64,000 nucleotides of DNA from an uncultured Fodinibius sp. (GTDB taxonomy: Bacteria; Bacteroidota; Rhodothermia; Balneolales; Balneolaceae), in NCBI GenBank assembly GCA_913056455.1, contig CAJXMJ010000002.1, positions 62,001-126,000 on the forward strand. Reading direction: 5' to 3'. Made by a program: the position numbers and the translations under genes. Below, piece after piece: positions 2,759 to 46,974 of this stretch (position 1 is the first letter of the stretch; every line of letters begins with the position of its first letter). The notes beneath the pieces were generated by a model, which made no database searches, was not told the origin of the DNA, and saw only the letters and a list, made by a program, of their open reading frames with translations.

Positions 2759-3781
2759 ATGGAATATAAAAACTATTACGACATACTCGGCGTTAGTAAG
2801 AATGCCTCACAGGATGAAATAAAGAAGGCATACCGTAAGAAAGCCGCTAAATATCATCCTGATAAAAATCCTGACGATCCTTCGGCGGAGGAAAAGTTCA
2901 AGGAAGTGGGTGAGGCATACGAAGTGTTAAGCGATCCCGAGAAGCGCGAACTTTATAACAAAGTTGGCAAAGACTGGAAAAAGTATCAGCGTGCCGGCGG
3001 ATCTGCCGATGGATTCAACTGGCAAGATTATGCCCGACAACAAAGCCAAGGTCGAGGTGGTTTTAGCGGTCAGCAAAGTTATCAAACTAATTTTGACCTC
3101 AATGACTTGTTTGGGGGTGGCGCCCGGAGTCGCGGAGGAAGTAGCGGCAGGGGCGGTGGATTCTCAAGCTTTTTTGAAACCATTTTTGGAGGCGGTGGCA
3201 ATCCGTTTGAACAAGCACAACAGCAACAGTCTCGTGGAAGACGATACCAGAGTAACGCCCGAAAACAAAGCAAAAACGGGAAGCAAAACATCAAGGCTAA
3301 TGTAACTATTTCACTTAAAGAGGCTTATGAAGGAACGTCCCGAACCCTCCGTGTTGGCGGAGAAAAAATGAAGGTTAAAATACCTGCCGGTATTAAAGAC
3401 GGGCAACGGCTTAAGCTGAAGGGCAAAGGCCGAAGCACTCTTTCCAGAGGAGCGCGCGGAGACCTCTATTTGACTGTTAATATTAATATGCCCGAGGGAT
3501 ACGAACGTAAGGGTAACAATATTTACTATGACCATCCCATTGATCTTTATACGGCCGTACTGGGTAGAGAAACTGTAGTAAATACGCTGGCAGGTAAAGC
3601 CAAGCTAAATATCCCCGCCGGGACTTCAAGTGGCAAGCTATTTCGATTAAATGGTATGGGCATGCCTGAATTTAAAAACTCATCAAACAAAGGAGATTTA
3701 CTTGTTCGGATCCAAATACAAGTGCCTGAGAAACTCTCCAAAGAAGAAGAAAAGCTATTTAAACAACTGGCCAACAAGTAA
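2759..3781 (+). CDS. J-domain co-chaperone, CbpA/type II DnaJ-like
   Basis: A 340-residue cytoplasmic Hsp40 that stimulates DnaK ATPase and delivers substrates. The J domain covers residues 4-70 with HPD at 33-35. A Gly/Phe-rich region with long Gly and Gln/Ser runs follows (about 80-165). Two C-terminal beta-barrel domains come next (about 175-255 and 260-335; [19 protein letters not shown] is typical). The four CxxCxGxG zinc repeats of DnaJ proper are absent, so this is a class B (CbpA-like) protein. The gene is a single transcription unit with its own sigma-54-type promoter and leader hairpin, and ends at a hairpin shared with the convergent neighbour. No dnaK or grpE lies nearby. Confidence 0.93.
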
Positions 3782-10253: not shown

Positions 10254-10353
10254 ACGTAAGGTATTCTCTGACTATTTTTCATTAAAACGGAGCAATTTTA
10301 TTGAGAATCCAGATATGGTAAATACGTAGAATAGAAGCTATTGTTCCCTATTG

Positions 10354-10369
10354 GCAAATTCTTATTTGC
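10354..10369 (-). repeat. Small hairpin downstream of the M29 aminopeptidase gene
   Basis: GCAAAT-TCTT-ATTTGC is a perfect 6-4-6 inverted repeat about 11 bases past the aminopeptidase stop on the minus strand. It has no T-run, so it is a weak terminator candidate at best. Confidence 0.3.
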
Positions 10370-10379
10370 AATGGATACA

Positions 10380-11486
10380 TTAGTCATTCAGCAAATTCTC
10401 AGGATTCAAACCCTCCAAATCATCCGTAATAAACTTGCGCCCCTCGCGGATTTTCTCCCCATCCAAATATACATCGGCACCTATACATACCAGATCCCAG
10501 TGAATATTACTCTCATTGCCATTCGGCGCAATCTCATAATCATTGCCGAGCGTAAGATGATTCGATCCGTATATTTTTTCATCAAAAAGAATATCATACA
10601 TCGGTTCATCGATAATGGGATTCAGACCAAAACTGAACTCTCCAAACTGTCGGGCTCCCGCATCGGTATCCAATATTTCTTCAAGTGCTTCATTGTTTGA
10701 GGAATCCGAATCAATAACAACGCCGTCACGCACTTCCAGCTTCACGTATTCAAACGGCTTGCCCTGATACACGCTGGGTGCATAGGTAATATGTCCGTTT
10801 ACTGATGAAAGAATAGGAGATGAAAAAAGCTCGCCATCCGGAATATTTCGTTTCCCAAAACAGGGTACCCAAGTCTGATCTTTTACCAAAAACTCAATAT
10901 CGGTCCCTTCTCCTTCGAGACGAATCATATCCGTTTCTTCGAGCCGGGCTTGTAGCGGCTTCATCGCATCGGCCAGCTCAGTATAATCCAACAGACAAGC
11001 TTTATAATAAAACTCTCTGAATCGCTGGGTTGGCATCTTGGCATTCATCGCAAATGCTTCTGAGGGATAGCGCAGCACCACCCAGTTAGTATTATTTACG
11101 CGCTCTTTATAGTGTACGGGATCTACAAAATGGTCGGCATATATTTTATTGGCCTCCTTACTCACATCGGCCTGCTCATAAATATTCAGAGCCGCACGTA
11201 TTCCCACAAAAGCGTCCATCTTTTTCATGAGTGGAAGCTGATCGTTTTCCGTCTGTCCTTTCCAAAATTCTTTATCCCCGGTTTCTACAAGCATACGACG
11301 AATTTCAGTGTCTTCGATCTGTACATAGGGATTAGCATCCATCTCCCGAGCATATTCTACCAATGCCCGAAGCAGACCAATACCATTTAGTCCCACCAGC
11401 TGTAGCATTACATTTTGTCCCTTTTCTAACTCACAGCTGAACTCTAAGATTTTCTTCGCTAATTGCCGATCTTCGTTTGAATACAT
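10380..11486 (-). CDS. M29-family metallo-aminopeptidase
   Basis: A 368-residue cytoplasmic aminopeptidase of the thermophilic aminopeptidase (AmpS/AmpT/PepS) family, which removes N-terminal residues using two metal ions. The metal ligands expected of the family are visible: E219 in NIPDGELF, E283 in GEFSFGLNP, H310 in GSNHLTLG and H329/D331 in NIHWDLV. The N-terminal half (1-190) has the family fold with the ENDQLPLMKKMDAFVGIRA stretch. No signal peptide is present. The start at 11486 lacks a Shine-Dalgarno sequence, which is common in this window. It lies in the same direction as tamA-tamB upstream (165-base gap) and the amidase downstream, but no promoter or operon link is evident. Confidence 0.9.
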   Translation of the reverse strand: MYSNEDRQLAKKILEFSCELEKGQNVMLQLVGLNGIGLLRALVEYAREMDANPYVQIEDTEIRRMLVETGDKEFWKGQTENDQLPLMKKMDAFVGIRAALNIYEQADVSKEANKIYADHFVDPVHYKERVNNTNWVVLRYPSEAFAMNAKMPTQRFREFYYKACLLDYTELADAMKPLQARLEETDMIRLEGEGTDIEFLVKDQTWVPCFGKRNIPDGELFSSPILSSVNGHITYAPSVYQGKPFEYVKLEVRDGVVIDSDSSNNEALEEILDTDAGARQFGEFSFGLNPIIDEPMYDILFDEKIYGSNHLTLGNDYEIAPNGNESNIHWDLVCIGADVYLDGEKIREGRKFITDDLEGLNPENLLND

Positions 11487-11650
11487 GATTATTGTGATTT
11501 GAAATATTCTGTAATTAATAGCTCTTAGTTATTGGATAGCTTGTAGCGCATGTTTTCCTTTAAAAGAAAGTAAATGCATCGAGATCCTGAAACAAGTTTG
11601 CAATGACACTATTTTAAAAAGGTCTCCCATCTAACTACTCAAGAATAAAC

Positions 11651-14600
11651 CTAATAATCATAATTCCACTTCAGGTCTACGCCCTGCCGGATATCATTTC
11701 CCTGTCGCAGAATCAACTTCAGATCCTCGCGCAACATATACTCCAATAAAAAGCCCGTATCCGGCGTTGAACCTGTGATAACGTTCTGGATAGCAAAGAA
11801 TACTTTGGGGTTCAAATACCAGCCGGTAGTAATTGAGGTTCCCGTTTCTCCACCGGACCGGGTGTTATCAATTTTTACTACATCTATACCAAGCCGCTGG
11901 GTTGCCAGCGCTTCAACCCGATCCAAAAGGACATCCAGAGCTACATCTGCGGCTGTTGTATTGCTTCCGGAACTGGCTACAACCTGCTTCCAAGAATCCA
12001 AAGCATAAAAAGGCTGACCAAACAGTGTATAGCTTATAATATTTTCGAGCTCCATTGGTGGCTGACTCTCATATCTGAACTCAGGTTTCTCAACCGTACC
12101 TTCAATAATATACCAGATTACAATATCTTCCTGAGTCTGCGGAGGTTCATATTTTGTTCTAATCTGAAGCTGTGGATTTTCCGGATTACCGCTAAACGTT
12201 ACGACCCCTTCTTCAAGGTTAAAACGTTTTCCAAAGGGACGTGCATACCCATTTGGGGCACTCATATCTCCAAAAAGCTCCAAGTCACTTCCACTTTTTT
12301 TAACCAAATCCAATACCCCGTCTAACTCAAGTTCCATTTCAAGGTAGCGCTCATTCCGGATAAAAAATCGCCTATTAAATCCAACATCCATATCCAGAGC
12401 CATAGAATCATAAATATTAACTGATGTGGTTTCTTGATCCTCAGAATCCAACTGTACGCTTTCAACAGATTTTTCACCGAAATTATCCAGCTTGATAAAG
12501 CCACTTAGAAAATTGAGGCTCCCAGAAATATTCGGGCTTGTAACGGTTCCCCGAACCTGTGTATTAAGGTTGATGACAGCATTATACTCAGAGGTATTGG
12601 CCGCGCGAAAGTTTTGAGCATTTACCGTAATATCCATCTTTCCGGGAATTAACTCCTCCAATGCAATTGTACCATTCGCTCGAATATCACCACTTCCACT
12701 TTCAGCTGTAAAATTGGAGAGTCGAATTTGATCGGGGGCAAACTCAATTGTTGAGGCTACCTTCTCAACCGTAATTCCAGCCGGTACTAAATGAAACCTC
12801 CCGCCTATCAACTCCAGATACCCATCCGCCTTCAAATCTTCAATGGCTCCCTTAACCTGTACAGAGCCATCAAGACTACCTCTCACTTGTCGCATAAGCA
12901 ACGGATCTATAAAATCGTTAAGAGCCCTCAGGTTAAACTCATTCGTCTCTATATTTACAGCAATATGATCATGCTGTTGCGGCAAATTAACCTGAAAGGT
13001 CTTCATATCGATGAGCAGGGGAAACCGAGCACTAATTTGTGCCGCACGTTGCTTTAGCGACATTACAGTAGCATCCAGTGTGAGTTCCTCATCGGCGTGC
13101 CGGTAGTTTGCTCCTGCCGTTACAGAATCGATTGCGACACCCGACAGTACCGCATTTTTTAGGGATAAATCTGCATCGAATTCAGGATCACCGGCCGTAC
13201 CATCAAGCGTTCCCCAAAACGAAAGGACACCAGTTGTTTCCATATTTTCCATTTCCCCAAAAAGAGATTGGAAACGATCGATAGATATATCCGATACTCT
13301 AAGATCACCTGATACCCGCTCTTCGAAAAATGCTTCTTCAAACGTCTCAGGATCACCCAGTTTAAAAGGCAAATTAGTGTGCCCGCTAATAAGCTCTGCT
13401 CCATCATCCGTGAGTGATAATGTACCCTCTATACGCTCATCAGCAATATCCGTGAAAATCGACAACGAATCGAAATCTGCCCCTTCGAAGGAAATCTCTG
13501 ATAACAATATATCGCCCACTGCCTGTAAATCGGTACCCCGTCGGTCGATATTGAATTCCCCGGATAGCATTCCCTCAAAAAAGGTCTCACCCAATAAACT
13601 GCTCTGAATCACTGCTGTATTCAGATCATTTCCCCTTACAAAGCCTCGCTGTTCATCTGTACTGATAATTGGTAACCCAACCTCCAAAAATGATCCATCT
13701 CCCGAAGAAATACGTAGCGGTTCTATACGCAGGCTATCATTTTGATACTCCAACTCAAAAGACTCCTCAAGGGTCAAAGTTCGAAAATCAGTAATAAGAT
13801 TTAATTCACTGGTATTTATGCTAATAGAATCTGTTGCTACCCGGTAGGTTCCGGACTGTTCGATACGACCTTCTGAGGAACTTGAAAACTTAAAATCATA
13901 CTGCCCCCTGGCAGTCTCATTCCTATAATCGCCCCGCGTTTTAAGACTTAGGTTTTGGAGTCGAACCCCCGAAAAAATCGGTTCTTCCAGGTTTAAGTCG
14001 GTCAGATAAAACAACGTATCTCCAACATTGATATCGACTGATCCTCGAGCACGATCGGCTGTGAAAAGTGAATCATATGCTATGTTATTAACATCCAACT
14101 TTCCAAGAAACCGAAGGCCATTATCCTTAAACGGACTTAATGTACCCGTAACATTGCCTGCAGCCTGTAACTCATCAGCATCTATCAAGGGGGCCAGTGA
14201 CGATAGATCCTTAAGTTCTAGATCTAAAAATAATTCATTGTCGACATTATGTAAGTTCAGAAAATTTAACTGACCACTAAAGGTTCCATCTGCAATACCA
14301 CTTTGCAACTGGGTACTGTCAACGGTCACAACGCTATCCCTTATCGAAAAACCAGCATAAATAGCATCAACTTTCTCACCATTAATAATAGAGGAATCGA
14401 CCGCTACCCTTGATTGAAGCCGCATATTTGCAGGCTCAAACCCCGTTCCCTTTCCGGTGATGTGCCCATTTAGCGACGTACTAAAGTTCTGTCCTACCAA
14501 CAACGTACCCAAATCCAACTCCTTAGTTTGCAGCTGATACTCATACGATGGTGTTGTCGTCATGCCCCGCATCGAAGCGGCCATTTCAATATATCCGTCA

Positions 14601-16117
14601 TAAAAGTTTAACGTCCCATCTGTTGTAAAGCTATCCCTGCTAATCCGACCACTTACTTCAGTATTTGTAATACTGTGTCCCAACATAGCCCCCTGCTGCA
14701 TATTCAAAGCATACTTCCATGGTTCCTCCTGTGGATACCAATTTCTACCCTCAAAGGTGAAATCAAACGTTAAATTTCCGTCATAGCTCATATCCTGCAT
14801 CCAGTAGCCCGGGTTTACTTTCTCACCCAGAACATGGCCTTTTAACAAAGGATACTCCGACCAAATGTCCTCGGCCGACAAATTGAACTTCATCCTTTGT
14901 TGCTTCTCAACCCCTTCCATTGATAAGGCAAGAGAGCTATTTTTGACTTCTGCCTGACCCGATAATTGTTGCAAATTATAAGTATCGGTTTCGATATCAG
15001 ATGCCGAAAACGAAAGTTCTCCGGCTGCCTTTGTTAGATTTGTAATATTTGCCCGCCCATTAAATGATACATCCAACTTTTGCAACCGCGGATAGGTCGT
15101 ATCAGCTAATAACGTTGCCAGATCTATTGCTTCGCCTGTGGTTCGAACCCGCTCTACAACCAGCTCGGATTGCCACATAATACGACTCGTCATTTCGAAT
15201 GATCGTATCCCTGTCCCCTGCATGGAAAGCCCAAGATCAAACTGCTCTGGATTTCCCCGTACTGAAAACGTTACATTTACATTTTCCCGAATAGGATATT
15301 CTTCAATTATAGCTGCAATATCAGACCAATAAACCGGCGTCGATTCAATTCCCAACTGTACACTCGTATCAGCAATATCAGCATATCCATTGGCTTCAAT
15401 TACCGATTTTCCCGTCGCCAGCATCAACTTTTCGAGCGTTATCTTCTGGTCATTTGCCGAAGCCGCAGCCTTCAAGTCGAGCGATTGGTCCAAGTCCCTC
15501 TCGGTGATATTTAAAGAGAAGTCGCGCAGATCTGCTTGATAAATATTGCCATCATAACCAAAACTGCTATTAATATTTAATTGACTGATATGATAGCTCG
15601 ATCCCAATGGCAAGCTATCGGATTTTACAGAGACAGTACCGTCATCCAACAGAAAATTTGAAATATGGAAAGGGATCATTGCTGATTCTGTTGTGTCCGA
15701 AGACTCGGCAACCAATCGTTCAACATTCCAGCCTTTGGAATTCTGTCGGGCATTTAGTTTGGGCTGATAAACTTCCAGATCAGTAACAGCAATTCTTCCT
15801 CCCAATAAAGCCCAAATATTGTACGAAGCATATACAGAGTCTACGCTTGCAACGGTATCTTCTTGTGTTAATGTAAGTTGGGATAGGGTAACCTCTTCCC
15901 ATAAATCGCCCGACAACTTTTCTATAGACAGCTTTGCAATGAGCTGGTCATTCGCCGTTGAAACAATAGTGCTTCGCACCCAATCTTGAACAAATGTGGT
16001 CTTCAGTGATAGGCGAAACACTAATCCAAGTATAAAAACAGCCAAACACAGCCAAAGTAATCGCTTGCCCCATCGTTTTAAGATATTATCACTATGCTTG
16101 TTGTTCTTCTGAACCAT
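11651..16117 (-). CDS. tamB: TamB-like translocation/assembly module protein (DUF490)
   Basis: A 1488-residue inner-membrane-anchored, periplasm-spanning protein that partners with the TamA-type outer-membrane protein encoded immediately upstream. A single N-terminal membrane helix (about 17-38) is followed by more than a thousand residues of repetitive amphipathic beta-strand sequence. These hydrophobic-groove repeats are typical of AsmA/TamB bridge-like lipid transporters. The C-terminal DUF490 domain (about 1130-1488) ends with the family-typical NPKVFFAIQNVITG and a final beta-strand (KLILRQGNDIRQGVDLKWNYDY in the last 22 residues; key aromatic Y at the end). It overlaps tamA by one base (TAATG), which indicates translational coupling. 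In this phylum TamB is also proposed to support outer-membrane lipid transport. The length is typical. Confidence 0.9.
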   Translation of the reverse strand: MVQKNNKHSDNILKRWGKRLLWLCLAVFILGLVFRLSLKTTFVQDWVRSTIVSTANDQLIAKLSIEKLSGDLWEEVTLSQLTLTQEDTVASVDSVYASYNIWALLGGRIAVTDLEVYQPKLNARQNSKGWNVERLVAESSDTTESAMIPFHISNFLLDDGTVSVKSDSLPLGSSYHISQLNINSSFGYDGNIYQADLRDFSLNITERDLDQSLDLKAAASANDQKITLEKLMLATGKSVIEANGYADIADTSVQLGIESTPVYWSDIAAIIEEYPIRENVNVTFSVRGNPEQFDLGLSMQGTGIRSFEMTSRIMWQSELVVERVRTTGEAIDLATLLADTTYPRLQKLDVSFNGRANITNLTKAAGELSFSASDIETDTYNLQQLSGQAEVKNSSLALSMEGVEKQQRMKFNLSAEDIWSEYPLLKGHVLGEKVNPGYWMQDMSYDGNLTFDFTFEGRNWYPQEEPWKYALNMQQGAMLGHSITNTEVSGRISRDSFTTDGTLNFYDGYIEMAASMRGMTTTPSYEYQLQTKELDLGTLLVGQNFSTSLNGHITGKGTGFEPANMRLQSRVAVDSSIINGEKVDAIYAGFSIRDSVVTVDSTQLQSGIADGTFSGQLNFLNLHNVDNELFLDLELKDLSSLAPLIDADELQAAGNVTGTLSPFKDNGLRFLGKLDVNNIAYDSLFTADRARGSVDINVGDTLFYLTDLNLEEPIFSGVRLQNLSLKTRGDYRNETARGQYDFKFSSSSEGRIEQSGTYRVATDSISINTSELNLITDFRTLTLEESFELEYQNDSLRIEPLRISSGDGSFLEVGLPIISTDEQRGFVRGNDLNTAVIQSSLLGETFFEGMLSGEFNIDRRGTDLQAVGDILLSEISFEGADFDSLSIFTDIADERIEGTLSLTDDGAELISGHTNLPFKLGDPETFEEAFFEERVSGDLRVSDISIDRFQSLFGEMENMETTGVLSFWGTLDGTAGDPEFDADLSLKNAVLSGVAIDSVTAGANYRHADEELTLDATVMSLKQRAAQISARFPLLIDMKTFQVNLPQQHDHIAVNIETNEFNLRALNDFIDPLLMRQVRGSLDGSVQVKGAIEDLKADGYLELIGGRFHLVPAGITVEKVASTIEFAPDQIRLSNFTAESGSGDIRANGTIALEELIPGKMDITVNAQNFRAANTSEYNAVINLNTQVRGTVTSPNISGSLNFLSGFIKLDNFGEKSVESVQLDSEDQETTSVNIYDSMALDMDVGFNRRFFIRNERYLEMELELDGVLDLVKKSGSDLELFGDMSAPNGYARPFGKRFNLEEGVVTFSGNPENPQLQIRTKYEPPQTQEDIVIWYIIEGTVEKPEFRYESQPPMELENIISYTLFGQPFYALDSWKQVVASSGSNTTAADVALDVLLDRVEALATQRLGIDVVKIDNTRSGGETGTSITTGWYLNPKVFFAIQNVITGSTPDTGFLLEYMLREDLKLILRQGNDIRQGVDLKWNYDY

Positions 16118-36958: not shown

Positions 36959-37780
36959 ATGACTAATAACGAAGCAACTATGGATTTAAAGGAAGGCATA
37001 CCACTGCACAAGCAGATCAGCGACTGGTTAAAGCAGGAAATTGAAAGCGGAGCTTTAACATCTGATGAAAAACTGCCCTCTGAGAATGAGTTAAGCCAAA
37101 AATTTGATGTGAGTCGCGTAACCGTTCGGAGGGCCCTACAAACCCTTGAAAATGAACAACTGATTTATCGCTGCCAGGGACTGGGTTCGTTTGTTACTGA
37201 TCAGCGTACGCACCAATCATTTTCTATCCTTAATGATTTTACCGAAGAGCTGGAAGGCTCGGGCATGGAAGCAAGCTCCAAGCTGATATCATTTGAACAA
37301 GTCGATATCAGTGAGCAAAAGGACCTGCTCTCGTATTTGGATATTGAAAACAAAAAAATAGCTGTTCAGTTAGAACGTGTTCGACTGGGGGATGGTGAAC
37401 CTATTGCTTATGACATCACCTGGATGCCTATTTTTTATGGTCAGCTGATTGAGGGATATAACCTTGAGGAAACAACTATCTTTAAAATCTTGGAAGATGA
37501 ATTCGATATTCCTATCGAAAAGGGATGTTATCGCATTGAAGCATCAATGGCCGACGGCAAGTTAGCAAAACACCTGAATGTAGATCCGCAAACACCACTG
37601 CTATTAATGAATCGCATTTCGTACACCATTGGGGAAAAACCAGTGTATTACCAAAAACGATATTACCGAAACGATAAAATGGTGTTTGAGCTGATGGCTG
37701 AACGGAGAGCTTCGAATACTAATGCTGATGACGAACTACCTTTTAAAGAAATGATTCCTGTTTTTAAAGAACAATCCTAA
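36959..37780 (+). CDS. GntR-family regulator, HutC subgroup (UTRA effector domain)
   Basis: A 273-residue transcription factor. The winged helix-turn-helix covers residues 10-80, with LPSENELSQKFDVSRVTVRR as recognition region and the wing GLGSFV. The UTRA ligand-binding domain (about 95-245) contains the typical LERVRLGDGEPIAYDITW and LLLMNRISY. It is divergent from the efflux operon with a 200-base gap that holds two copies of a candidate operator, so it probably controls both directions. UTRA domains usually bind small metabolites, and the ligand here is unknown. An internal ATG at 36980 could be the start. A DUF2892 gene follows 38 bases later. Confidence 0.9.
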   Translation: MTNNEATMDLKEGIPLHKQISDWLKQEIESGALTSDEKLPSENELSQKFDVSRVTVRRALQTLENEQLIYRCQGLGSFVTDQRTHQSFSILNDFTEELEGSGMEASSKLISFEQVDISEQKDLLSYLDIENKKIAVQLERVRLGDGEPIAYDITWMPIFYGQLIEGYNLEETTIFKILEDEFDIPIEKGCYRIEASMADGKLAKHLNVDPQTPLLLMNRISYTIGEKPVYYQKRYYRNDKMVFELMAERRASNTNADDELPFKEMIPVFKEQS

Positions 37781-37818: not shown

Positions 37819-38022
37819 ATGAAAAAGAACATGGGAACGATTGATCGCACAATACGAACGCTGCTTGCTATATTAGTAGGGGTTCTTTATTTCATGGACG
37901 TTATAACAGGAACAACTGCCATAATTCTTGGTGTATTTGCAATAATCTTTTTAGGTACCAGCCTGATAAGTACCTGTCCACTATATATGCCCTTTGGCTT
38001 GTCAACACGAAGGAAGAAGTAA
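37819..38022 (+). CDS. Second DUF2892 (YgaP-like transmembrane) protein
   Basis: A 67-residue two-helix membrane protein. MKKNMGTIDRTIRTLLAILVG is the standard DUF2892 opening, the second helix is IILGVFAIIFLGTSLI, and the conserved Cys lies in STCPLYMPFG. It is the downstream partner of the GntR regulator gene and a paralogue of the DUF2892 gene at 29866-30123, on the other arm of the same divergent locus. Having two copies in one locus supports a link to the sulfur/efflux function. A strong terminator follows. Confidence 0.88.
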   Translation: MKKNMGTIDRTIRTLLAILVGVLYFMDVITGTTAIILGVFAIIFLGTSLISTCPLYMPFGLSTRRKK

Positions 38023-38194: not shown

Positions 38195-41100
38195 ATGACA
38201 AGTAATGACCAACATATAACGCTTTCCCCTGTTAATATTACGGTTATTTACCTTGTTGTGGCCGGAATATGGATCGCCTTTACTGACACTCTGCTTGAGT
38301 CACTGGTTACTGACGCTCGAGCTCTTTCCATTTTGCAAACCTTCAAGGGCTGGTTCTACGTACTACTTACAGGGGCCGGCTTATATTGGCTGATTAAAAA
38401 ACACGAGCAACAGCTTCAAAAAAAGGAAGTTCGACTCGAAAATTTGCTGGGCGAAGTCCAATCCGAAAAAGAGCTCAAAGATGTTTTATTTGAACGGATT
38501 CCCATCCTCATAACCATTTATGACCCTGACTTGGAAGAGTTCGAAGTCAACAGAGAGTTTGAAAAAGTAACCGGCTGGACCAATAAACAAATTGAAGAGG
38601 AGGATATTGATCTTCTAGAAGCAGTTTATCCTGATATGGAAACCAGGAAGGAAGCGGTAGCATTTATGAATAATCCGGGGGTCGGCTGGAAAGAATTTGA
38701 TCTAACTAAAAGAAACGGGGAAATAATTCCAACTAGCTGGACCGATATTCGCCTTACCGATAACACTTCCGTGGGCATCGGTATTGACATGACTGATATT
38801 AAGGCTTCGCAGACAAAAATAAGAGAGTCAAGAGAGTTGTTAAAAAAAGTTTTCGAGAGCCTAGAATCAAGTCTGATCATTCTTGATTTCGAGAGCCGCA
38901 CCATTATAGACTGTAATAAAAGGACCGAAGACCTATTTGGTTACAGTAAAGAAGAACTTGAGGGTAGCTCAACCCGCATGCTTCATATTAACGATGAAAG
39001 ATTCAAAGAGTTTGATGAGATAGGGAAAGACGCTCTTACAGAAAAAGGAGTATTCCAGACCGAATATAAAATGCAGAAGAAAGACGGGACCATCTTTCAC
39101 TCTGACCATACCGTATCGCTGGTTTATGATGAAGAAGGGGAAATTGATAAGGTGGTAAGTGTCATACGTGATATCACGGATCAAAAAGAATACGAGCAGA
39201 AGTTGCAAAAACGGCAAGAACGACTGCAACGGTCACAGAAAATTGGCCAAATCGGGGACTGGGAATATAATACCGAAACCGGAGAAATTACGTGGTCTGA
39301 CACCATGTATGAAATTTATGAACGTGACCCGGAATTAGGTCCTCCCTCCTATGAAGATATTATAACATACTATCACGAATCGTCCTCAGACAATTACCAG
39401 CAAGTGGTTCGACAGGCCATTGAGAACAAAAAACCATACGATATTGACATAGAACTAATAACAGCAAAAGGAAATAAAAAATATACCCGAGCAATTGGAA
39501 TACCAATTACGAATGATAACCAGGAGGTCACAAAATTATTAGGTATTGCACAAGATATTACTGAGCGTAAAAAGTCAGAAAGAGAGCTTAAAAAACGGAA
39601 AGATTTCATTGAAACCACATTGACCAATTTACCTATTGGGGTTGCAGTAAATACCATTGATGATGGTCAGGTAACCCTAATGAATGAACAGTTTACTAAT
39701 ATTTATGGTTGGCCCCGGGAAATTCTACATGATGTAGACAGTTTCTTTAATCATGTATATCCTGATGAGGAGTATCGAAAGAAGATCAGGGAACAGGTAA
39801 TGAAGGATATAGAGAGTGGAAATCCGGAAAAAATGCAATGGGAGCGCATCTCTATAACTACACAAGATGGCGAAGAACGGATTGTAAACAATCAAGCTAT
39901 TCCATTGTTTAGCCAAAACCTGATGATTTCCATTGTAACTGATGTAACAGAACAGCATAAGCTGGAACAAGAATTAAAGAAAGAAAAACAGCGATTTGAG
40001 CTTGTGGCCGAGACCACAAGCGATGTTATCTGGGATCTGGATTTTGAAAATGAGGAACTATGGTGGAGCCAAGGTTTTGAAGAAACCTTCGGCTATGAGC
40101 GGAAGGGGCTACGCGAAAACTATAAGGCATGGGAACAATACATCCATCCGGAGGATCGAGAAAAAATTACTAGAAGCTCCAATCAAGCGCTGGAATCTGA
40201 TGCAGAGCAATTGACCCTACAATATAGGCTGATAAAAGCGGACGAATCTATTGCTCATATCGTTGATCGTGCTATCATCATCAGAGATAATGAGGGCAAA
40301 CCGGTCCGCATGATAGGAACGATGGATGATATTACTGAACGCGTGGAAGCAGAACAGCAACTCCGTGAATCAGAAGAAAAATATCGCTATTTATTTGAAA
40401 ATAATCCCCAGCCCATGTGGATATATGATCCCAATACGCTGGAATTTGTTGAAGTCAATCAAGCATCCGTCAATCACTATGGCTATTCCGAAGAAGAATT
40501 TATGGATATGACACTGCTTGATATCCGCCCGAAGGAAGACGCTGAAGCATTAAAAGAAAATGTAAAGCAAAATAAAGGAACCACCTCATATTCTGAAGAA
40601 TGGGTACATCTTACAAAAGATGGGTCTCAGATAGATGTAGAACTATCAGCAGCTGACGTTCATTACCAAAAGAACAAAACCTATCGGCTGGTTTTAATCA
40701 ATGATGTAACCGAACAAAAACGACTGCAAGAAAAAATTATACAGTCGGTTATTGAGGGTGAGGACCGGGAGCGTAAACGTATTGCACACGAGCTGCACGA
40801 CGGACTCGGTCAATACCTGGTAGCAGCCAGCATGAATCTGCAATCAGCCAAAACAGATATTGAAAAATTAAGCGAAAAACGACAGAACCAGTTTGAAACA
40901 GGAATGTCGCTTCTTAAAAATGCCCTCTCTGAAACCCGAAGCATTGCACACAACCTGATGCCCAAAGCGATTTCGGACTATGGACTTATTGCCGCCCTCA
41001 AAAATCTTATCAATGATTTTGACAAAAGCACTGATATTGATTTTCAGTTTACTCACAATTACAATCAACTAAAGCTTAACAATCAGGCTGAAATTAATAT

Positions 41101-41401
41101 TTACCGCATATTCCAGGAAATAATTACCAATGCCGTTCGCCACTCAGAATGCACAAAAATAGATATTGGATTGCAACTGAAAGAGGATTCACTTACAATG
41201 AAAGTGAAAGACGATGGCATTGGCGCGCAACTGGATACAAACGATGAACAAACCGGCTTGGGCTTGAGAAGTATAAAAACAAGAGTAAGCAGTCTTAATG
41301 GATCCCTTGATATTACTTCAGAGCCTGGCACAGGGATGGAAATCATGATTACCATCCCCGAAGTAAATAAACTAAAATCCAACAGTTCGGATCATGGCTA
41401 A
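38195..41401 (+). CDS. Multi-PAS membrane sensor histidine kinase (HisKA_3 type)
   Basis: A 1068-residue kinase. Two N-terminal membrane helices (about 9-30 and 50-68) are followed by a short coiled coil and six PAS domains (about 95-205, 215-330, 345-455, 465-585, 590-715 and 720-840). Then comes the NarX/DegS-type dimerisation domain with the phospho-acceptor in RIAHELHDGLGQ (H868), and an HATPase domain (about 950-1060) with an intact N box (YRIFQEIITNAVRHSE), DDGIGA and TGLGLRSI. All catalytic motifs are present. The gene overlaps the downstream NarL-type regulator by eight bases, so the two form a coupled two-component pair. The many PAS domains suggest redox, oxygen or ligand sensing, but the signal is unknown. 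Confidence 0.95.
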   Translation: MTSNDQHITLSPVNITVIYLVVAGIWIAFTDTLLESLVTDARALSILQTFKGWFYVLLTGAGLYWLIKKHEQQLQKKEVRLENLLGEVQSEKELKDVLFERIPILITIYDPDLEEFEVNREFEKVTGWTNKQIEEEDIDLLEAVYPDMETRKEAVAFMNNPGVGWKEFDLTKRNGEIIPTSWTDIRLTDNTSVGIGIDMTDIKASQTKIRESRELLKKVFESLESSLIILDFESRTIIDCNKRTEDLFGYSKEELEGSSTRMLHINDERFKEFDEIGKDALTEKGVFQTEYKMQKKDGTIFHSDHTVSLVYDEEGEIDKVVSVIRDITDQKEYEQKLQKRQERLQRSQKIGQIGDWEYNTETGEITWSDTMYEIYERDPELGPPSYEDIITYYHESSSDNYQQVVRQAIENKKPYDIDIELITAKGNKKYTRAIGIPITNDNQEVTKLLGIAQDITERKKSERELKKRKDFIETTLTNLPIGVAVNTIDDGQVTLMNEQFTNIYGWPREILHDVDSFFNHVYPDEEYRKKIREQVMKDIESGNPEKMQWERISITTQDGEERIVNNQAIPLFSQNLMISIVTDVTEQHKLEQELKKEKQRFELVAETTSDVIWDLDFENEELWWSQGFEETFGYERKGLRENYKAWEQYIHPEDREKITRSSNQALESDAEQLTLQYRLIKADESIAHIVDRAIIIRDNEGKPVRMIGTMDDITERVEAEQQLRESEEKYRYLFENNPQPMWIYDPNTLEFVEVNQASVNHYGYSEEEFMDMTLLDIRPKEDAEALKENVKQNKGTTSYSEEWVHLTKDGSQIDVELSAADVHYQKNKTYRLVLINDVTEQKRLQEKIIQSVIEGEDRERKRIAHELHDGLGQYLVAASMNLQSAKTDIEKLSEKRQNQFETGMSLLKNALSETRSIAHNLMPKAISDYGLIAALKNLINDFDKSTDIDFQFTHNYNQLKLNNQAEINIYRIFQEIITNAVRHSECTKIDIGLQLKEDSLTMKVKDDGIGAQLDTNDEQTGLGLRSIKTRVSSLNGSLDITSEPGTGMEIMITIPEVNKLKSNSSDHG

Positions 41402-42047
41402 TATCAAGATATTATTAGCGGATGACCACGATATTGTCCGTGACGGAATAAAAATGTTGCTGGAAGATGAGGTAGGCTTTGAAATAACAGCAGAAGCAGA
41501 AAACGGGAAAGAGGCCATTAAGGCGTGTAAAGAACATGATATCGACTTGATTGTCATGGATATAAGCATGCCTGAGATGAACGGTATTGAAGCCACAGAA
41601 AAAATTAAAGAGGAGTTTCCTGCAATAAAGGTCTTGGCCCTTACTATGATGGATGAAGATCAACACATTCGCCAGATGATTGAGGCCGGAGCCTCGGGCT
41701 ATATCCTGAAAAGTTCCGACAAAATTGAGCTGGTCGATGCTATTACCACTATTTTAGAAGGCCAACATTATTTCAGTGATGATGCCACCCAAAGCGTTAT
41801 GATGGATCTTGTTAAGGGCACAACAAAAAAAGAAAACTCTGACCCCGGGAATATAACCGACCGGGAAAAAGAAGTCCTTGAACTAATTGTAAAACAGTAT
41901 ACCAATCAAGAGATTGCCGAGGAATTGTATATAAGCACCCGTACGGTAGATGCCCACCGCCGAAACCTTTTGCAAAAGACAGGGGCCAAAAATACAGCCG
42001 GACTCGTGACTTACGCCATCAAGCATGACCTGGCAGATATCGAATAA
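41394..42047 (+). CDS. NarL/FixJ-family response regulator
   Basis: A 217-residue regulator. The receiver (1-120) has all phosphorylation residues: D10-D11, phospho-acceptor D56 (IVMDISMP), a Thr in LALTMM and the Lys in YILKSS. The LuxR-type DNA-binding domain (about 150-212) has the standard motif DREKEVLELIVKQYTNQEIAEELYISTRTVDAHRRNLLQKTG in 153-194. It overlaps the kinase gene by eight bases and should be its direct output. The repeated ATAGGCTTTT elements downstream are plausible targets, but this is not shown. Confidence 0.95.
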   Translation: MANIKILLADDHDIVRDGIKMLLEDEVGFEITAEAENGKEAIKACKEHDIDLIVMDISMPEMNGIEATEKIKEEFPAIKVLALTMMDEDQHIRQMIEAGASGYILKSSDKIELVDAITTILEGQHYFSDDATQSVMMDLVKGTTKKENSDPGNITDREKEVLELIVKQYTNQEIAEELYISTRTVDAHRRNLLQKTGAKNTAGLVTYAIKHDLADIE

Positions 42048-42124
42048 ATATCTGCTCTTCCAAACACCGCTCCCGCACGAACCATTTATTCCATTCCTAC
42101 TCTAATGAATTTTCTTTTCGCAGG

Positions 42125-42180
42125 TATAGGCTTTTTCACCTATCTCTAAAATAGGCTTTTTAGGTTATATCCAGCCTATG
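42125..42180. repeat. ATAGGCTTTT element cluster before the pseudo-receiver gene
   Basis: TATAGGCTTTTTCACCTAT (42125-42143) contains ATAGG-N8-CCTAT dyads. ATAGGCTTTT recurs at 42151-42160, and AGCCTAT (42173-42179) pairs with ATAGGCT. The second copy starts 75 bases before the ATG at 42226. A sequence resembling a Bacteroidota -7 element, TAGGTTTG, lies at 42191-42198. Confidence 0.5.
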
Positions 42181-42225
42181 TCAAAAATAGTAGGTTTGTG
42201 TATATCATCTCAATAATTCAAGGGC

Positions 42226-42612
42226 ATGCATATACTACTCGTTGGCAACGTATCTTCTATTACTACTACCATTAAAACGATGCTTCAGTCCATCGATAAT
42301 TCTTCAGTTCAGCATACTGATTTAGCTAAACTAAAGAAGTCGGAACAACCAGAAGCTAAGTATGACCTCATTGTGGCCAACATTGAGGATTTTGACAAAC
42401 CATCTACAAAGGTAGTTTCTAAAGTTTATACACAATTCCCCGACATCCCCTTACTTGTTATTCATTCATACCTTAACAAAACACTGATTATGCCGATGAT
42501 AAAGGCGGGGGCTACCGGATACATTCAGAACAATGTATCAGAAAGCCAGCTCATTGAGGCTGTACAAAAAGTCGCCTCCGGAACGAAATGTATTATAGCA
42601 GAAACTACCTAA
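42226..42612 (+). CDS. Stand-alone degenerate receiver-domain protein (pseudo-receiver)
   Basis: A 128-residue protein that aligns end to end with the receiver of the preceding regulator: HILLVG at the first strand, YDLIVANIEDF at the phospho-acceptor strand, IPLLVIHSYL, then IKAGATGYIQNNVSESQLIEAV. All catalytic residues are replaced: the acidic pair is Gly-Asn, the phospho-Asp is Asn, the Thr is His and the Lys is Asn. It has no output domain. It should not be phosphorylated in the usual way and may act as a protein-binding partner, for instance of the four-PAS protein encoded next. The reading frame is intact, so it is not a decayed pseudogene. Confidence 0.8.
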   Translation: MHILLVGNVSSITTTIKTMLQSIDNSSVQHTDLAKLKKSEQPEAKYDLIVANIEDFDKPSTKVVSKVYTQFPDIPLLVIHSYLNKTLIMPMIKAGATGYIQNNVSESQLIEAVQKVASGTKCIIAETT

Positions 42613-42642
42613 TGTACAATACGCTTTTTTCGTTATTAAAAA

Positions 42643-42660
42643 TATAGGCTTTTCACCTGT
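42643..42660. repeat. ATAGGCTTTT element before the pseudokinase gene
   Basis: TATAGGCTTTTCACCTGT, nearly the same as the element at 42125-42143. ATAGG begins 74 bases before the ATG at 42718, matching the position of the copy before the pseudo-receiver gene. Confidence 0.5.
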
Positions 42661-42717
42661 TTCCTGAACTTGCCCAATTGATGATTTTATGACCGTATTA
42701 TCATCAAGCCAAACATT

Positions 42718-44901
42718 ATGACTGACTCAGATATTTCTAACGTTACTTTTGACAACACTTTTCTTGATAGCCTGCTGGCGCACGTAGCCATTATAGATGC
42801 CAACGGGACCATTGTAGATCATAATGAAGCATGGAAAAACTTCAATGCAAATTCAGCGTCCATTAAACGTCCTAATATAGGCGCTAATTATTTCGAAGTC
42901 CTACAACAAGCTATTGAGAAAGGCGATGACTATGCGCTTAAGTTTTTATTGGGATTAAAGAATGTTTTAAATCAAAACAAAAAAGCCTTTACCCTTGCCT
43001 ACCCTCTAAAAACAGAGACCAATTCTTTCTGGTTTAACTTGACCATTCGTCCCTGTAGTGATAACAACTCTCATTTTATAATGATACATGAGGATATCAC
43101 AGCCTCAATGAAGGCCAAATACGAAAAGCAGGAAAATGAAGATCGTTTTGAAGTAAAGTTTGAGGAGAGCCTCGACGGTATTTTTATCACAGATAGCGAA
43201 GGAACTATTTTAGAAGCTAATCAAACAGCAAGTAAGATTTTGGGCTGGACACAGGATGAGCTTTTGGAAAGCTCACTGGACACCGTACTGAATACTGAAG
43301 ATCCCAAATATCAGGCTGCGGTTGAACAGCAAGAAAAATCAGGCACCTATTCGTTGGAACTCGAATTCATTAACAAGCAGGGCAATACCATCCCCGCAAA
43401 AACAACCTCGCGAAGCTATCGCAATCCGGATGGCAAGCTAAGATCTATTATCTCTTTTCATGATCTCAGCCAGTGGAAAGAGGTTGAAAGCGATCTCATA
43501 AAGAATAAGAATTTTACTGAATCGGCACTGAACAGTATTCCCGGCGTCTTTTTAGTACTCGACCGTGAGGGCAATATCGTAAGGTGGAACGAGCACATGA
43601 CCACAGAGCTCGGATATAGTCCACAAGAGTTGTCCCAAAAAAATGCCCTATCTTTTATTACTGATGATCAAAAAGAGGCCGTTCGTAAAAAAATGGAAGC
43701 GTGTTTTGAGAACGGCGAATTAGCTATTGAAACCAAAATCCATGCTAAAGAAGGGGGTATAAAGGACTTCTTTCTCTTTGCGAAGCGCTTTGTACAAGAT
43801 GGGGAGCCCTACCTTGTTGGTGCAGGTATTGACATTACGGATCGTAAAAAGGTTGAGCGAGAAAATCGCAAAAACCAAATCATGCTGGAGCAGCTTTTTG
43901 ATAATTCTCCGGTGGGTATTACCATTGTCGATAATGATGATAAGATCCACAAAGTAAATGATAGCTTTACTACTATTTTTGGATACTCAGAAGATGAGGC
44001 AATAGGTAAAAACATCAATAAGCTCTTAGCACCCAAGAGTAAAAAGCATGAGGCAAAAGCCATCTCTCTGGCTACGCAAAAGGGAGAAAGCCTGCAAACC
44101 GAAACCATTCGAATGCATAAAAACGGAAAAGAGGTTCCCGTTTTAATCGGTAGCGTACCTGTTGAATTAGAAGATGAGATCATTGCTATCTATGGCATAT
44201 ATGTAGATGTATCCACTCAGCACGATTACCGTGAGAAAATAAAAGATACGCTCCGAGAAAAAGAAGCCCTTCTTTCGGAGCTGCACCACCGTGTAAAGAA
44301 CAATCTCGCTCTCATTGCCAGCCTTGTAGAACTGCAGCTTTTTGACGCTGAAGACGATAAGTTAGAAGGAGAACTGGAAAATATTAAGAATCGTATCATG
44401 ACGATCGCCTCTATCCACGAGGTACTGTACCAAAATGGTAACTTTACGACCATCCCCTTCACCAACTTTCTTCAGGAACTGGCAAATTCTCGAATGGTTC
44501 AGAACAAACGGGACACGAACCAAGTACAAATTAATATTCCTTCCGACGAGGTTTCTCTCAATATCAATCAGTCCATTCCCAGTGGATTATTGTTGAATGA
44601 AATCCTCTCATTGATATTTAAGTTCACAGACAAAAGTAAAAGCTCAGTAATTGATATTCAGTTGCGGGAATATGGCAAAAAAGTGCATCTGATTATAGAG
44701 GGAGATCAGATTATTAACTGTCCCGATGAAGCGAAAAAAAGTAACTCATTACATAACATTCTAATCCAAACGCTGGTTAAACAGATCGGGGGAACACTGA
44801 TTTGGCCAAATCCAGAAAGCGAATACCAAAAGTTTGAGTTCTTTTTTACTAAAGAAAACGGATCCAGTCCCGCAAGTGAATACCTTGAAGTAGCTGAATA
44901 A
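42718..44901 (+). CDS. Four-PAS HisKA_2-type sensor protein with degenerate ATPase domain (probable pseudokinase)
   Basis: A 727-residue protein without membrane helices, so cytoplasmic. Four PAS domains (about 10-120, 140-250, 262-375 and 388-500) lead to a HisKA_2 dimerisation domain with ELHHRVKNNL (H523 and H524, the expected phospho-acceptor site). The ATPase-like domain (about 600-715) keeps SIPSGLLLNE but lacks the key parts: the N-box Asn is L632 (SLIFKF replaces SNALKH), the DxGxG box is replaced by EGDQII (661-666), and the GLGL motif by NSLHNILI. ATP binding looks unlikely. It may receive phosphate, sense signals and bind partners. It follows the pseudo-receiver gene and shares its upstream element. 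Confidence 0.85.
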   Translation: MTDSDISNVTFDNTFLDSLLAHVAIIDANGTIVDHNEAWKNFNANSASIKRPNIGANYFEVLQQAIEKGDDYALKFLLGLKNVLNQNKKAFTLAYPLKTETNSFWFNLTIRPCSDNNSHFIMIHEDITASMKAKYEKQENEDRFEVKFEESLDGIFITDSEGTILEANQTASKILGWTQDELLESSLDTVLNTEDPKYQAAVEQQEKSGTYSLELEFINKQGNTIPAKTTSRSYRNPDGKLRSIISFHDLSQWKEVESDLIKNKNFTESALNSIPGVFLVLDREGNIVRWNEHMTTELGYSPQELSQKNALSFITDDQKEAVRKKMEACFENGELAIETKIHAKEGGIKDFFLFAKRFVQDGEPYLVGAGIDITDRKKVERENRKNQIMLEQLFDNSPVGITIVDNDDKIHKVNDSFTTIFGYSEDEAIGKNINKLLAPKSKKHEAKAISLATQKGESLQTETIRMHKNGKEVPVLIGSVPVELEDEIIAIYGIYVDVSTQHDYREKIKDTLREKEALLSELHHRVKNNLALIASLVELQLFDAEDDKLEGELENIKNRIMTIASIHEVLYQNGNFTTIPFTNFLQELANSRMVQNKRDTNQVQINIPSDEVSLNINQSIPSGLLLNEILSLIFKFTDKSKSSVIDIQLREYGKKVHLIIEGDQIINCPDEAKKSNSLHNILIQTLVKQIGGTLIWPNPESEYQKFEFFFTKENGSSPASEYLEVAE

Positions 44902-45078: not shown

Positions 45079-46974
45079 ATGTTTATCATAGACCTTATGA
45101 AGGAGTTTTTCCAAACAATTTTACGCCCAGACCTCATCCGCTCTACTTGGCGAAGGGTGATCCACCTCTGGAAGCCAATGGCCGCGTGGACCATACTCGT
45201 ATGGGGTGTCATTGCCACTATTTTAGCCCCTATTTCGTCTGCCGTACTTGGGATAGAATTTTTTCGCAGTGGCCAACTTATAATCGGAAATGAACAACTA
45301 ATCTCGTGGCTGTTATCTCCCGCCGGCTTAGGTTATTTACTGCTTGGGACTACTCTGACTCTTACCGGTTGGATACTTCGATTTGCCGGTATCTTCCAGA
45401 TTGTAGCAGATGATATCAACAAGCAATCGGTGGAGTTTCGACCTATTATATTTCGTATTCTCAGCAAAACTCATCTATTATTCCGCCTGTGCTTGTTCAT
45501 CGTAGCAACAGGACTACTCCTTTTACTACCCCTTGCGGCGGGCTTGGCATTGATCTATGAACTATTACTGGATAGCTATGATATTAACTATTACCTCTCC
45601 GCAACTCCTTCTGAATGGCATACTGCCATCATAATATCAGTAACTTGGCTTTTGGGCTGGATGTCGGGAGTTGTTTATCTGACCCGCTGCTTTCTGTTTG
45701 CGCTACCCACATACCTGCACAGTCAAAAATCCATTAGAGAATCACTGCGGTATGCCTGGCATATTGGCCCACAAAAATTAAACCCCCACTTAAGGCCTAT
45801 CCTTTCTGCTATCAGTTTTTGGGTAATCCTTCGTTTTATAGCAGATCTTATTCTTTTTACTGTCTCCTTCGGGTTAATAAACTGGGTAGGCGACTTCACA
45901 AATAGCTTACGAATCGTTGCACTGGCAACAGGGATATATGTAATAGCCTCTCTCTCCCTTGATGCCCTTATCTCTTTTCTGGGATTTTCGCATGTAACAA
46001 CGCTTATCACAAAAGTATACTTTCAAGACTTTCAGCAGGTCAACACTGCATCTGCCCCACTCTCTCGAAATAAATTCAGAAAACTCGGTTCCATTTTTAA
46101 AAACATCTTTCGTCCAACCCACATCTTTCCGATAGCTGGGGCTGTTATTCTCATCAGTATTGGTCTCAGTAGCTATATGATAGAACATATCCCAGAGACA
46201 AAGAACAGCCAGGTTAAAATTGTAGCACATCGTGCCGGTCCGGCTCCTGCTCCGGAAAACACACCACACGCACTTGATCTTACTATGAAAACAAAGGCTG
46301 AATGGACAGAGATTGATGTCCGCCTAAGCAAAGATAGTACAATTGTGGTAACACATGACTTTGATCTTATGCGTATTGCTAATAGTCCGGCCCCTATCTC
46401 TGATACCAACTATAATCACATACAACAAATCCTTAAAAACGCTTATTCGACCGGTAATACTTCTCACCAACAATTACATACTCTGGATGATTTTTTAACT
46501 GCAACCAAAGGGAATATTGGCCTCATGATTGAACTGAAGAAACCAACGGAGGCTTTAGCACGTAAAGTTATTGGAGCTATCAGAGCAAAAAACATGGTGA
46601 ATGACGTCGTTCTCATGTCTATGGACCTCGATGTCATTCGCTTCATACAAAATATAGCTCCAGATATTACCATAGGCTATATCTCTGCTTTTTCGATAGG
46701 TGATAAGAGTCAACTGCCGGTTAATCTGCTAGCAGTACATCACCGAGTAATTTCTGCTTCTCTAATAAATAAAACAGAACAGCAGGGCATAAAAACCTAT
46801 GCCTGGACCGTCAATAGGGTCAACACTATGGCAAATATGATTGAATATAACGTGGATGGTATTATTACAGACAAACCTAAACTTGCGGTGCGGATAAGGG
46901 AAGAATTACAAAAGTTATCGGCAACCGAACGGTTTTTACTACAGTTCAACCAGCTTATAGATTTTAATAAATAA
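45079..46974 (+). CDS. Membrane glycerophosphodiester phosphodiesterase (GDPD)
   Basis: A 631-residue protein with an N-terminal multi-helix membrane domain (about 20-375, some eight helices, matching the GPDPase membrane domain) and a C-terminal GDPD TIM barrel (about 380-610). The catalytic motifs are AHRAG with H384-R385 and PENT, EIDVRLSKDSTIVVTHDFDLMR with the metal-binding Glu and Asp and the second catalytic His, and DGIITDKP near the end. GDPDs hydrolyse glycerophosphodiesters to glycerol-3-phosphate and an alcohol. The membrane domain suggests action on lipid-derived substrates at the bilayer. The start at 45079 has AGGT upstream; an ATG at 45097 is possible. Single gene. Confidence 0.92.
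   Translation: MFIIDLMKEFFQTILRPDLIRSTWRRVIHLWKPMAAWTILVWGVIATILAPISSAVLGIEFFRSGQLIIGNEQLISWLLSPAGLGYLLLGTTLTLTGWILRFAGIFQIVADDINKQSVEFRPIIFRILSKTHLLFRLCLFIVATGLLLLLPLAAGLALIYELLLDSYDINYYLSATPSEWHTAIIISVTWLLGWMSGVVYLTRCFLFALPTYLHSQKSIRESLRYAWHIGPQKLNPHLRPILSAISFWVILRFIADLILFTVSFGLINWVGDFTNSLRIVALATGIYVIASLSLDALISFLGFSHVTTLITKVYFQDFQQVNTASAPLSRNKFRKLGSIFKNIFRPTHIFPIAGAVILISIGLSSYMIEHIPETKNSQVKIVAHRAGPAPAPENTPHALDLTMKTKAEWTEIDVRLSKDSTIVVTHDFDLMRIANSPAPISDTNYNHIQQILKNAYSTGNTSHQQLHTLDDFLTATKGNIGLMIELKKPTEALARKVIGAIRAKNMVNDVVLMSMDLDVIRFIQNIAPDITIGYISAFSIGDKSQLPVNLLAVHHRVISASLINKTEQQGIKTYAWTVNRVNTMANMIEYNVDGIITDKPKLAVRIREELQKLSATERFLLQFNQLIDFNK

Follow-up and report, generated by a model that had tools for sequence, protein, structure and literature searches.

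What does a bacterium gain by keeping, directly behind an intact two-component pair, a receiver and a histidine kinase that have both lost catalytic residues? This question is raised by four consecutive genes, here called G1 to G4 (Table 1), in a stretch of 64,000 nucleotides (nt) from an uncultured Fodinibius sp. of the family Balneolaceae (GenBank assembly GCA_913056455.1, contig CAJXMJ010000002.1, positions 62,001 to 126,000 of the forward strand), which as a whole is referred to as the window. An earlier note on this DNA had proposed a four-component sensory system consisting of an active pair, a pseudo-receiver and a pseudokinase, and its coordinates, order and strand for all four genes proved exact, including the 8-nt overlap of G1 and G2 (41394-41401). 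We found that the block is a conserved module of the Balneolaceae. Taken as a whole, the picture in which a two-component system regulates itself and induces two partners, G3 and G4, has in our judgement an even chance of being right.

The 92 genomes of the family were searched with the G3 alignment, and short-frame matches of at least 58 bits were found in 49 of them (hand count); in 128 genomes of the order, the G3-type matches outside the family (E<=1e-12) lay in frames of at least 213 amino acids (aa) and look like full-length regulators. Fifty pseudo-receiver loci, including the window, were mapped and tallied by hand from the maps, leaving out those cut by contig ends (L153, L185 and L186 for the NarL gene; L153, L182, L184, L185 and L186 for the kinase; L183 for G4). 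A NarL gene stands directly upstream of the pseudo-receiver in 46 of 47 assessable loci and is preceded by a G1-like kinase in 44 of 45, both genes being missing in L159. G4 follows directly downstream in 46 of 49; it is missing in L153, L156 and L177, where a tblastn search for G4 remnants gave none beyond matches inside or near the G1 region. These 46 include L166 and L172, in which G4 is truncated before the HisKA_2 domain, and several loci cut by contig ends. The order is kept in at least nine genera (g1, which is the genus of the window, g2, g4, g8, g9, g12, g26, g27 and g30), which rules out a chance neighbourhood. The earlier note had named a neighbourhood not conserved even in close relatives as grounds for giving up the idea, and the arrangement is in fact kept well beyond close relatives, in about 50 Balneolaceae loci.

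The four-component system thus exists and is conserved, but the gene set is not fixed at four, as both reduced and enlarged loci occur. Kinase, NarL gene and G4 are found without G3 in four loci (L037, L231, L235 and L240), and in a congener (L030) a pseudo-receiver gene decayed by several stops (6501-7092) lies among the other three genes and the G4 element, all intact. Many relatives in the L150-L186 set carry extra genes. In 16 loci G4 is followed by a lone receiver, about 120 aa long, that has Asp, Thr and Lys, and 24 loci encode a HisKA kinase (about 400 aa) whose ATPase motifs are intact; this kinase comes after G4 in 22 of them, and the other two (L153 and L156) keep it despite the loss of G4. 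When one example of each was compared with Pfam, the receiver scored 70.6 bits and the kinase matched HisKA and HATPase_c, with GAF_2 below the cut-off; both are possible relay parts.

The genome of the window also holds a second, paralogous module from C1:530094 onward (L149, G000:C1:521000-540000, 8857-15296). Here called the KaiC module, it consists of genes for a NarL-type regulator (NarL') and a pseudo-receiver-like protein, for a KaiC ATPase with two domains, and for a PAS-HisKA_2 kinase that has HATPase_c, together with one for a PAS-like protein. In the relatives of NarL' in L038 and L040 the acidic pair is altered.

G1 and G2 are an ordinary HisKA_3 and NarL/FixJ two-component pair. 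In Pfam scans, G1 carries HisKA_3 (61.5 bits, 40769-40966) and an intact HATPase_c (56 bits, 41090-41362), with hydrophobic segments, read by eye, at its N-terminus. G2 combines Response_reg (104 bits) with the LuxR-type helix-turn-helix GerE (62 bits), and its acidic pair, Asp, Thr and Lys are all intact. Ten PAS units had been counted in the four genes, and nine of them match a Pfam PAS model at E<=0.001 when the proteins are cut into the claimed units: five of the six in the G1 tandem and all four in G4, the first of the latter scoring below its family cut-off (24 versus 27 bits). The first claimed G1 unit (38462-38809) had no Pfam PAS match at this threshold, leaving that part of the count unsupported.

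The name pseudokinase fits only the ATPase half of G4, which matches HisKA_2 at 76.8 bits without any HATPase_c match in Pfam. Among 44 proteins scanned, made up of 41 G4 orthologues and three KaiC-module kinases added for comparison, HisKA_2 was detected in all and HATPase_c in three, namely the KaiC-module kinases; none of the 41 orthologues gave a HATPase_c match at E<=0.01. In a residue table of the 44 orthologues that are complete at the C-terminus, the Mg-binding Asn of the N-box and the Gly of the G2 box are present in none, and the G1 box keeps its Asp in eight, its first Gly in five and its second Gly in one, while the HRxxN His motif and the N-box Glu are kept in all 44. The motif HHRVKNNLA is likewise invariant across the 44 proteins of alignment A4. 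All five ATP residues are present in six of six KaiC-linked paralogues. Of 82 further HisKA_2 kinases, 80 have them intact, and one of the remaining two (L096) is a copy of an orthologue; the 82 were picked by the string HHRVKN, so that their HRxxN count is given by construction. Judged by these residues, G4 lacks what marks an active HisKA_2 kinase (the N-box Asn and the glycines of the G1 and G2 boxes) and shows the hallmarks of a PhyT-type protein, HRxxN in the DHp domain together with a degenerate ATPase domain, and its predicted phosphoryl-carrying His is under strong constraint. An invariant His beside eroding ATPase (CA) motifs suggests that G4 carries phosphoryl groups and is no mere inert partner, and by analogy we slightly favour the carrier reading. 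A review describes the His as essential for phosphotransfer and as dispensable for phosphatase activity in HisKA and HisKA_3 domains (PMC12632262).

Phylogenetic tree analysis placed the 44 orthologues and L096 in one clade (support 100/98, the bootstrap not being fully settled), separate from that of the KaiC-module kinases. Among the matches listed and placed in the tree, which are mostly generic HisKA_2 kinases, L096, a named Balneolaceae record, is the only one in the G4 clade. The fold of G4 seems to be retained in the model of its C-terminal part (mean predicted local distance difference test score, pLDDT, 85.5), while the ATP motifs are gone. Its best structural match is the light-activated kinase EL346 (4r3a, Z 16.8, root-mean-square deviation, rmsd, 4.7 over 193 residues; 4r39, Z 16.5, rmsd 3.4 over 176), which was also recovered by a sequence search with G4 (E 1.7e-11), together with weak matches to two more light-activated kinases; the other matches were not sensible. 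ChpT and Spo0B were absent from the best 50 structural matches, which excludes nothing. A conserved KGSSS- or KGPHSA-like tail ends the ATPase-type domain of G4 orthologues and KaiC-module kinases, in active and degenerate copies.

G3 matched Response_reg at just 22.5 bits (cut-off 30.2). Fifty-one G3-type proteins were aligned, namely 49 orthologues plus the paralogues that L149 and L040 have in their KaiC modules. None of the 51 retains the first residue of the acidic pair, the switch Thr or the Lys; at the second acidic position, 22 have D or E. The position of the phospho-Asp is occupied by Asp in 43 proteins, comprising 41 orthologues from other genera and the two paralogues from the genus of the window. 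In the eight orthologues of that genus it is Asn (seven, including G3 of the window itself) or His (one). A Spo0F-like relay through G3 itself is ruled out for this genus by the replacement in eight of eight. The structure model (pLDDT 87) has NarL/LuxR-type receivers as top matches (2qsj, Z 16.6, rmsd 2.2, 119 aligned), so the designation as a pseudo-receiver holds, with a receiver fold modelled and the phosphotransfer residues lost. Six of the ten invariant or nearly invariant positions fall at residues 82-99, around alpha4-beta5 of the model. By analogy with Osp and FixT, we tentatively regard an antikinase role as possible for G3, at somewhat less than even chances. The natural Asp-to-Asn change within this family bears on how pseudo-receivers act.

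An element shared by G3 and G4 at the same upstream distance had also been noticed, and the 24-base-pair (bp) matches indeed start 79 and 78 nt before the respective start codons. The 24-bp matrix AAAATTAGGCTTTTCACGTCTTAC (26.9 bits) was learned from G4 upstream regions and compared with single-base shuffles; a site was found in 45 of 45 regions, and 44 of these beat all 50 shuffles in leave-one-out runs. The palindrome matrix GTAGGTATTTTTACCTAT (16.8 bits) has a site before the pseudo-receiver in 50 of 50 loci, 43 of which beat all 100 shuffles, with at most 5 of 100 shuffles reaching the site score in any of the 50. Both were then sought in 857,844 bp, consisting of the window and 60 loci fetched around module genes and hence not a random sample. 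Matches to the 24-bp matrix above 13 bits numbered 56, of which 55 lie upstream of G4, a pseudo-receiver or a KaiC gene (the KaiC-gene sites of L038, L040 and L149 being outside the training set) and the remaining one lies where a contig ends directly after the pseudo-receiver (L183). The exact form TAGGY-N6-RCCTA occurs 30 times, always intergenic in the module or the KaiC module, one copy overlapping a stop codon. Across the 92 family genomes the 24-bp element was found at E<=0.1 in 46, and 48 of the 54 listed matches, including the 35 best, are at module or KaiC-module loci; among 247 genomes of the phylum it reached E<=0.001 in eight, all in the family, the genome of the window lying above that threshold. 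The conserved elements are thus concentrated at genes of the module and the KaiC module, and G3 and G4 each seem to have a promoter of their own. Short inverted repeats of this type are targets of NarL-type regulators. Because G2 shares both the location and the distribution of the elements, it is the predicted binder, and we consider this assignment probable. An ECF-type promoter or an RNA element would be a conceivable alternative to an operator.

Several results weigh against the picture as a whole. In the genome of the window, the calibrated 24-bp model reaches only E 0.0034 at the G4 site and 0.012 at the KaiC module, with 0.79 at the G3 site and one further site at 3.9 that we take as chance. 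Six of the 54 family matches are off-module (G021:C4, G010:C2, G008:C1, G053:C13, G049:C10 and G001:C26), several of them inside genes. The palindrome is not enriched genome-wide, as the same genome has 7 sites against 37 in the reversed control. In the 92 family genomes a tighter version yielded 66 rows, which by hand count represent 58 distinct sites, 20 belonging to the module, and the control yielded about 114 rows by hand summation. Since control counts exceed real ones, single palindrome sites prove nothing. Some loci lack G3 or G4, and no lone receiver stands at the locus in the species of the window; candidates occur elsewhere in its genome, the closest lone receiver (47% identity) at C7:24964, further lone receivers at C1:303628 and C1:19975, and the closest HisKA kinase of the added type (34%) at C2:377167. 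The off-module match in G049 (L237, 7987-8010) sits at the extreme 5' end within a frame akin to the HisKA_2 kinase of the KaiC module, and the start of this frame may be mis-set, which would make the site a promoter.

Based on these features, the four proteins could work together as follows. G1 would sense through its PAS tandem, autophosphorylate and phosphorylate G2, which would bind sites of the TAGGY-N6-RCCTA type and drive expression of G3 and G4. G3, non-phosphorylatable in the genus of the window, would bind a DHp domain, most likely that of G1, and restrain the kinase as negative feedback. G4 would accept and donate phosphoryl groups, moving phosphate between G2 and other, lone receivers under the control of its own PAS sensors; alternatively, within the same scheme, it might sequester or drain G2 in a PAS-controlled manner.

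Other explanations differ mainly in what the two degenerate proteins do. G4 might be an allosteric, non-phosphorylated pseudokinase like DivL, with DHp and CA domains that modulate G1 or bind phosphorylated G2 and a His that is structural only. DivL carries a Tyr at the position of the His, which counts against this reading, as does the invariance of HHRVKNNLA and HRxxN in G4 while the CA motifs erode. DivL is nevertheless among the structural matches of the G4 model (4q20, Z 13.8, rmsd 9.7, 180 aligned), and pseudo-histidine kinases that work by interaction are known; altogether we hold a DivL-like G4 to be unlikely. G4 could also be phosphorylated in trans, as the sensory half of a mixed kinase formed with an active HisKA_2 partner such as the KaiC-module kinase or the PAS-HisKA_2 kinase near a double palindrome at C1:1412570. 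A subunit that keeps its His and has lost its CA motifs would fit such a heterodimer, and the genome encodes intact HisKA_2 kinases behind related sites. Against it, the KaiC-module kinases belong to a separate clade, and we give this arrangement a low probability.

As for G3, it may pair with the receiver of G2 in the manner of WhiI and BldM, which offer a precedent, and shift the site choice of G2 instead of acting on kinases. The NarL/LuxR-type receivers that head its structural matches and the clustering of conserved positions at alpha4-beta5 would suit such pairing, but five loci (L030, L037, L231, L235 and L240) have no G3 or a decayed one and yet retain G1, G2, G4 and the element, and we find the idea doubtful. 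Finally, the block might consist of two unrelated neighbours, an ordinary kinase-NarL pair beside two decaying paralogues. In its favour, G3 and G4 seemingly have their own promoters, and one or the other is absent from a few loci; the order kept across genera, the open frames, the invariant H-box and the related conserved elements before both genes argue against it, leaving it highly improbable and already disfavoured. The autoregulated pair with its two induced partners is the reading that we prefer.

The elements are also found beyond the module. In the KaiC module of the window's genome, the palindrome precedes NarL' and the 24-bp element precedes kaiC; related KaiC operons carry the 24-bp element in G005, G008, G009 and G021 and the palindrome in genus g4 (L253 and L256). 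The KaiC locus of G005 (L230, 4214-12148) has two HisKA_2 kinases, one of which is preceded by a strong 24-bp site; a weaker site precedes kaiC. Fifteen non-module palindrome loci were picked by hand, without statistics, for being identical or nearly identical to module sites or recurrent. In eight of them (L249, L253, L254, L255, L256, L258, L261 and L263) the palindrome stands upstream of two-component or KaiC genes at a distance of up to about 550 bp, some with another gene as near or nearer on the opposite side; three are inside genes (L250, L252 and L262) and four near other genes (L251, L257, L259 and L260). Leaving L249 aside, the genes behind the eight sites belong to KaiC operons or encode hybrid kinases, a HisKA_2 kinase and a lone receiver. 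In L249 (G000:C1:1409500-1415500, 3071-3131) a pair of palindromes separated by 45 bp stands about 400 bp upstream of a PAS-HisKA_2 kinase with HATPase_c; L251 (G003) has similar paired sites, about 600 bp upstream of the gene for a mechanosensitive channel. A palindrome-marked signalling regulon beyond the module is possible and is a lead only. In its widest form, which we regard as speculative and rather improbable, the locus would be a Balneolaceae-specific phosphorelay with a PhyT/ChpT-type phosphotransferase evolved independently and an Osp-like antikinase derived from a NarL-type receiver, its regulator using a single palindromic operator to control a wider signalling regulon of KaiC-HisKA_2 operons, PAS-HisKA_2 kinases, hybrid kinases and lone receivers, and would amount to a KaiC-linked stress or timing network outside cyanobacteria.

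The features of the locus are collected in Table 1, with two flanking genes that lie outside the module. In addition, a frame at 37819-38022 of the window, between the GntR gene and G1, encodes a small two-helix membrane protein, which by its look we presume to be DUF2892-like.

Table 1 Features of the four-gene module and its flanks (positions within the window).
Feature	Position	Strand	Basis
GntR/UTRA regulator (flank, outside module)	36959..37780	+	syntenic in 8/8 other g1 module loci
G1, sensor histidine kinase, 1068 aa	38195..41401	+	open reading frame (ORF) coordinates and Pfam domains
G2, NarL/FixJ-type response regulator, 217 aa	41394..42047	+	ORF, Pfam, residue check
Palindrome ATAGGCTTTTTCACCTAT, predicted NarL-type operator of G3	42126..42143	.	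motif search
Second half of G3 element TAAAATAGGCTTTTTAGGTTATAT, weaker match to G4 element	42147..42170	+	24-bp matrix
G3, stand-alone pseudo-receiver, 128 aa	42226..42612	+	Pfam below cut-off, residue losses, structure model
24-bp element AAATATAGGCTTTTCACCTGTTTC, predicted operator of G4	42640..42663	+	24-bp matrix
G4, degenerate HisKA_2 kinase, 727 aa, four PAS units	42718..44901	+	Pfam, residue table, tree
HisKA_2 (DHp) domain of G4; HRxxN His codon 44287-44289	44278..44490	+	Pfam, alignment
Degenerate ATPase (CA) domain of G4; N-box Asn and G2-box Gly lost, G1 box eroded	44449..44853	+	predicted fold, residue table
Membrane GDPD protein (flank, outside module)	45079..46974	+	adjoins G4 in 3/8 other g1 module loci (L021, L022, L030)

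The earlier note knew of no described system of this composition. In the open-access literature searched, we found no description of the four-gene combination and no relevant paper on two-component signalling in Balneolaceae or Balneolota, so within these searches the claim stands for the combination, but not for its parts, as CckA-ChpT-CtrA with Osp and Pak-SdrG-PhyT-PhyR contain functionally matching ones. Should G4 prove to be a phosphotransferase, it would provide an example, beyond the alphaproteobacterial and Bacillus ones that we met, of a kinase losing its ATP engine and keeping its phosphate-carrying His, and the living intermediates (active KaiC-linked paralogues; three-, five- and six-gene forms) would make relay evolution testable. 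The conserved elements offer an entry to signalling output in a little-studied phylum, together with an unexpected link to KaiC.

Among the known counterparts, CtrA lies outside the NarL family, ChpT is not known to have PAS sensors, Spo0B is not known to have the HisKA_2 motif or PAS domains, and CmrT is a response regulator in its own right, complete with output domain. G4 resembles PhyT of the general stress response of Sphingomonas melonis, which shares both of its hallmarks, an HRxxN DHp domain and a degenerate ATPase domain, and which transfers phosphate from SdrG to PhyR and sequesters PhyR (PMC5898713). The gene of PhyT lies at the same locus as that of its response regulator, and PhyT receives phosphate from a single-domain receiver; here a NarL gene stands in the same block as G4, with G2 as the presumed partner, and the 16 relatives noted above have a lone intact receiver beside G4. 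PhyT is described there as membrane-anchored with a putative periplasmic sensor, whereas G4 has four PAS units, and the output here is a NarL/LuxR-type DNA-binding regulator instead of PhyR-NepR-EcfG. A pseudo-receiver is present here, the phylum is another, and the likeness rests on motifs and HisKA_2.

G3 resembles Osp of Rhodobacter sphaeroides, which is reported as a lone receiver that keeps its Asp, lacks the acidic pair and the Lys, is active as D51N and inhibits a kinase; osp is activated by CtrA through an upstream site, and FixT of FixLJ is cited as a like case (PMC9430884). The G3 family has likewise lost an acidic residue and the Lys, and the conserved operator predicted before all 50 pseudo-receivers would correspond to the CtrA site of osp. 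Unlike Osp, part of the G3 family keeps the second acidic residue, and seven of the eight orthologues in the genus of the window have Asn in place of Asp; osp is, moreover, presumably monocistronic and outside the kinase locus, and CckA is a hybrid kinase (PMC9430884). ChpT is reported as a dimeric DHp protein with an ATPase fold that binds no ATP (PMC3433190). The Spo0F-Spo0B-Spo0A relay of Bacillus, mentioned in PMC5898713, belongs to another phylum; there a phosphotransferase derived from a degenerate kinase core relays from a lone receiver to a DNA-binding regulator. CmrRST of Clostridioides difficile joins a kinase, a regulator and an Asp-less receiver-type protein in one autoactivated operon and has no degenerate kinase (PMC12632262). 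By analogy, the module is reminiscent of the proteins for feedback and phosphate transfer in alphaproteobacterial cell-cycle and stress control, although it belongs to a distant phylum. Each part has a studied counterpart, and what seems new is the combination of a two-component system with predicted feedback wiring and a degenerate kinase of putative phosphotransferase type.

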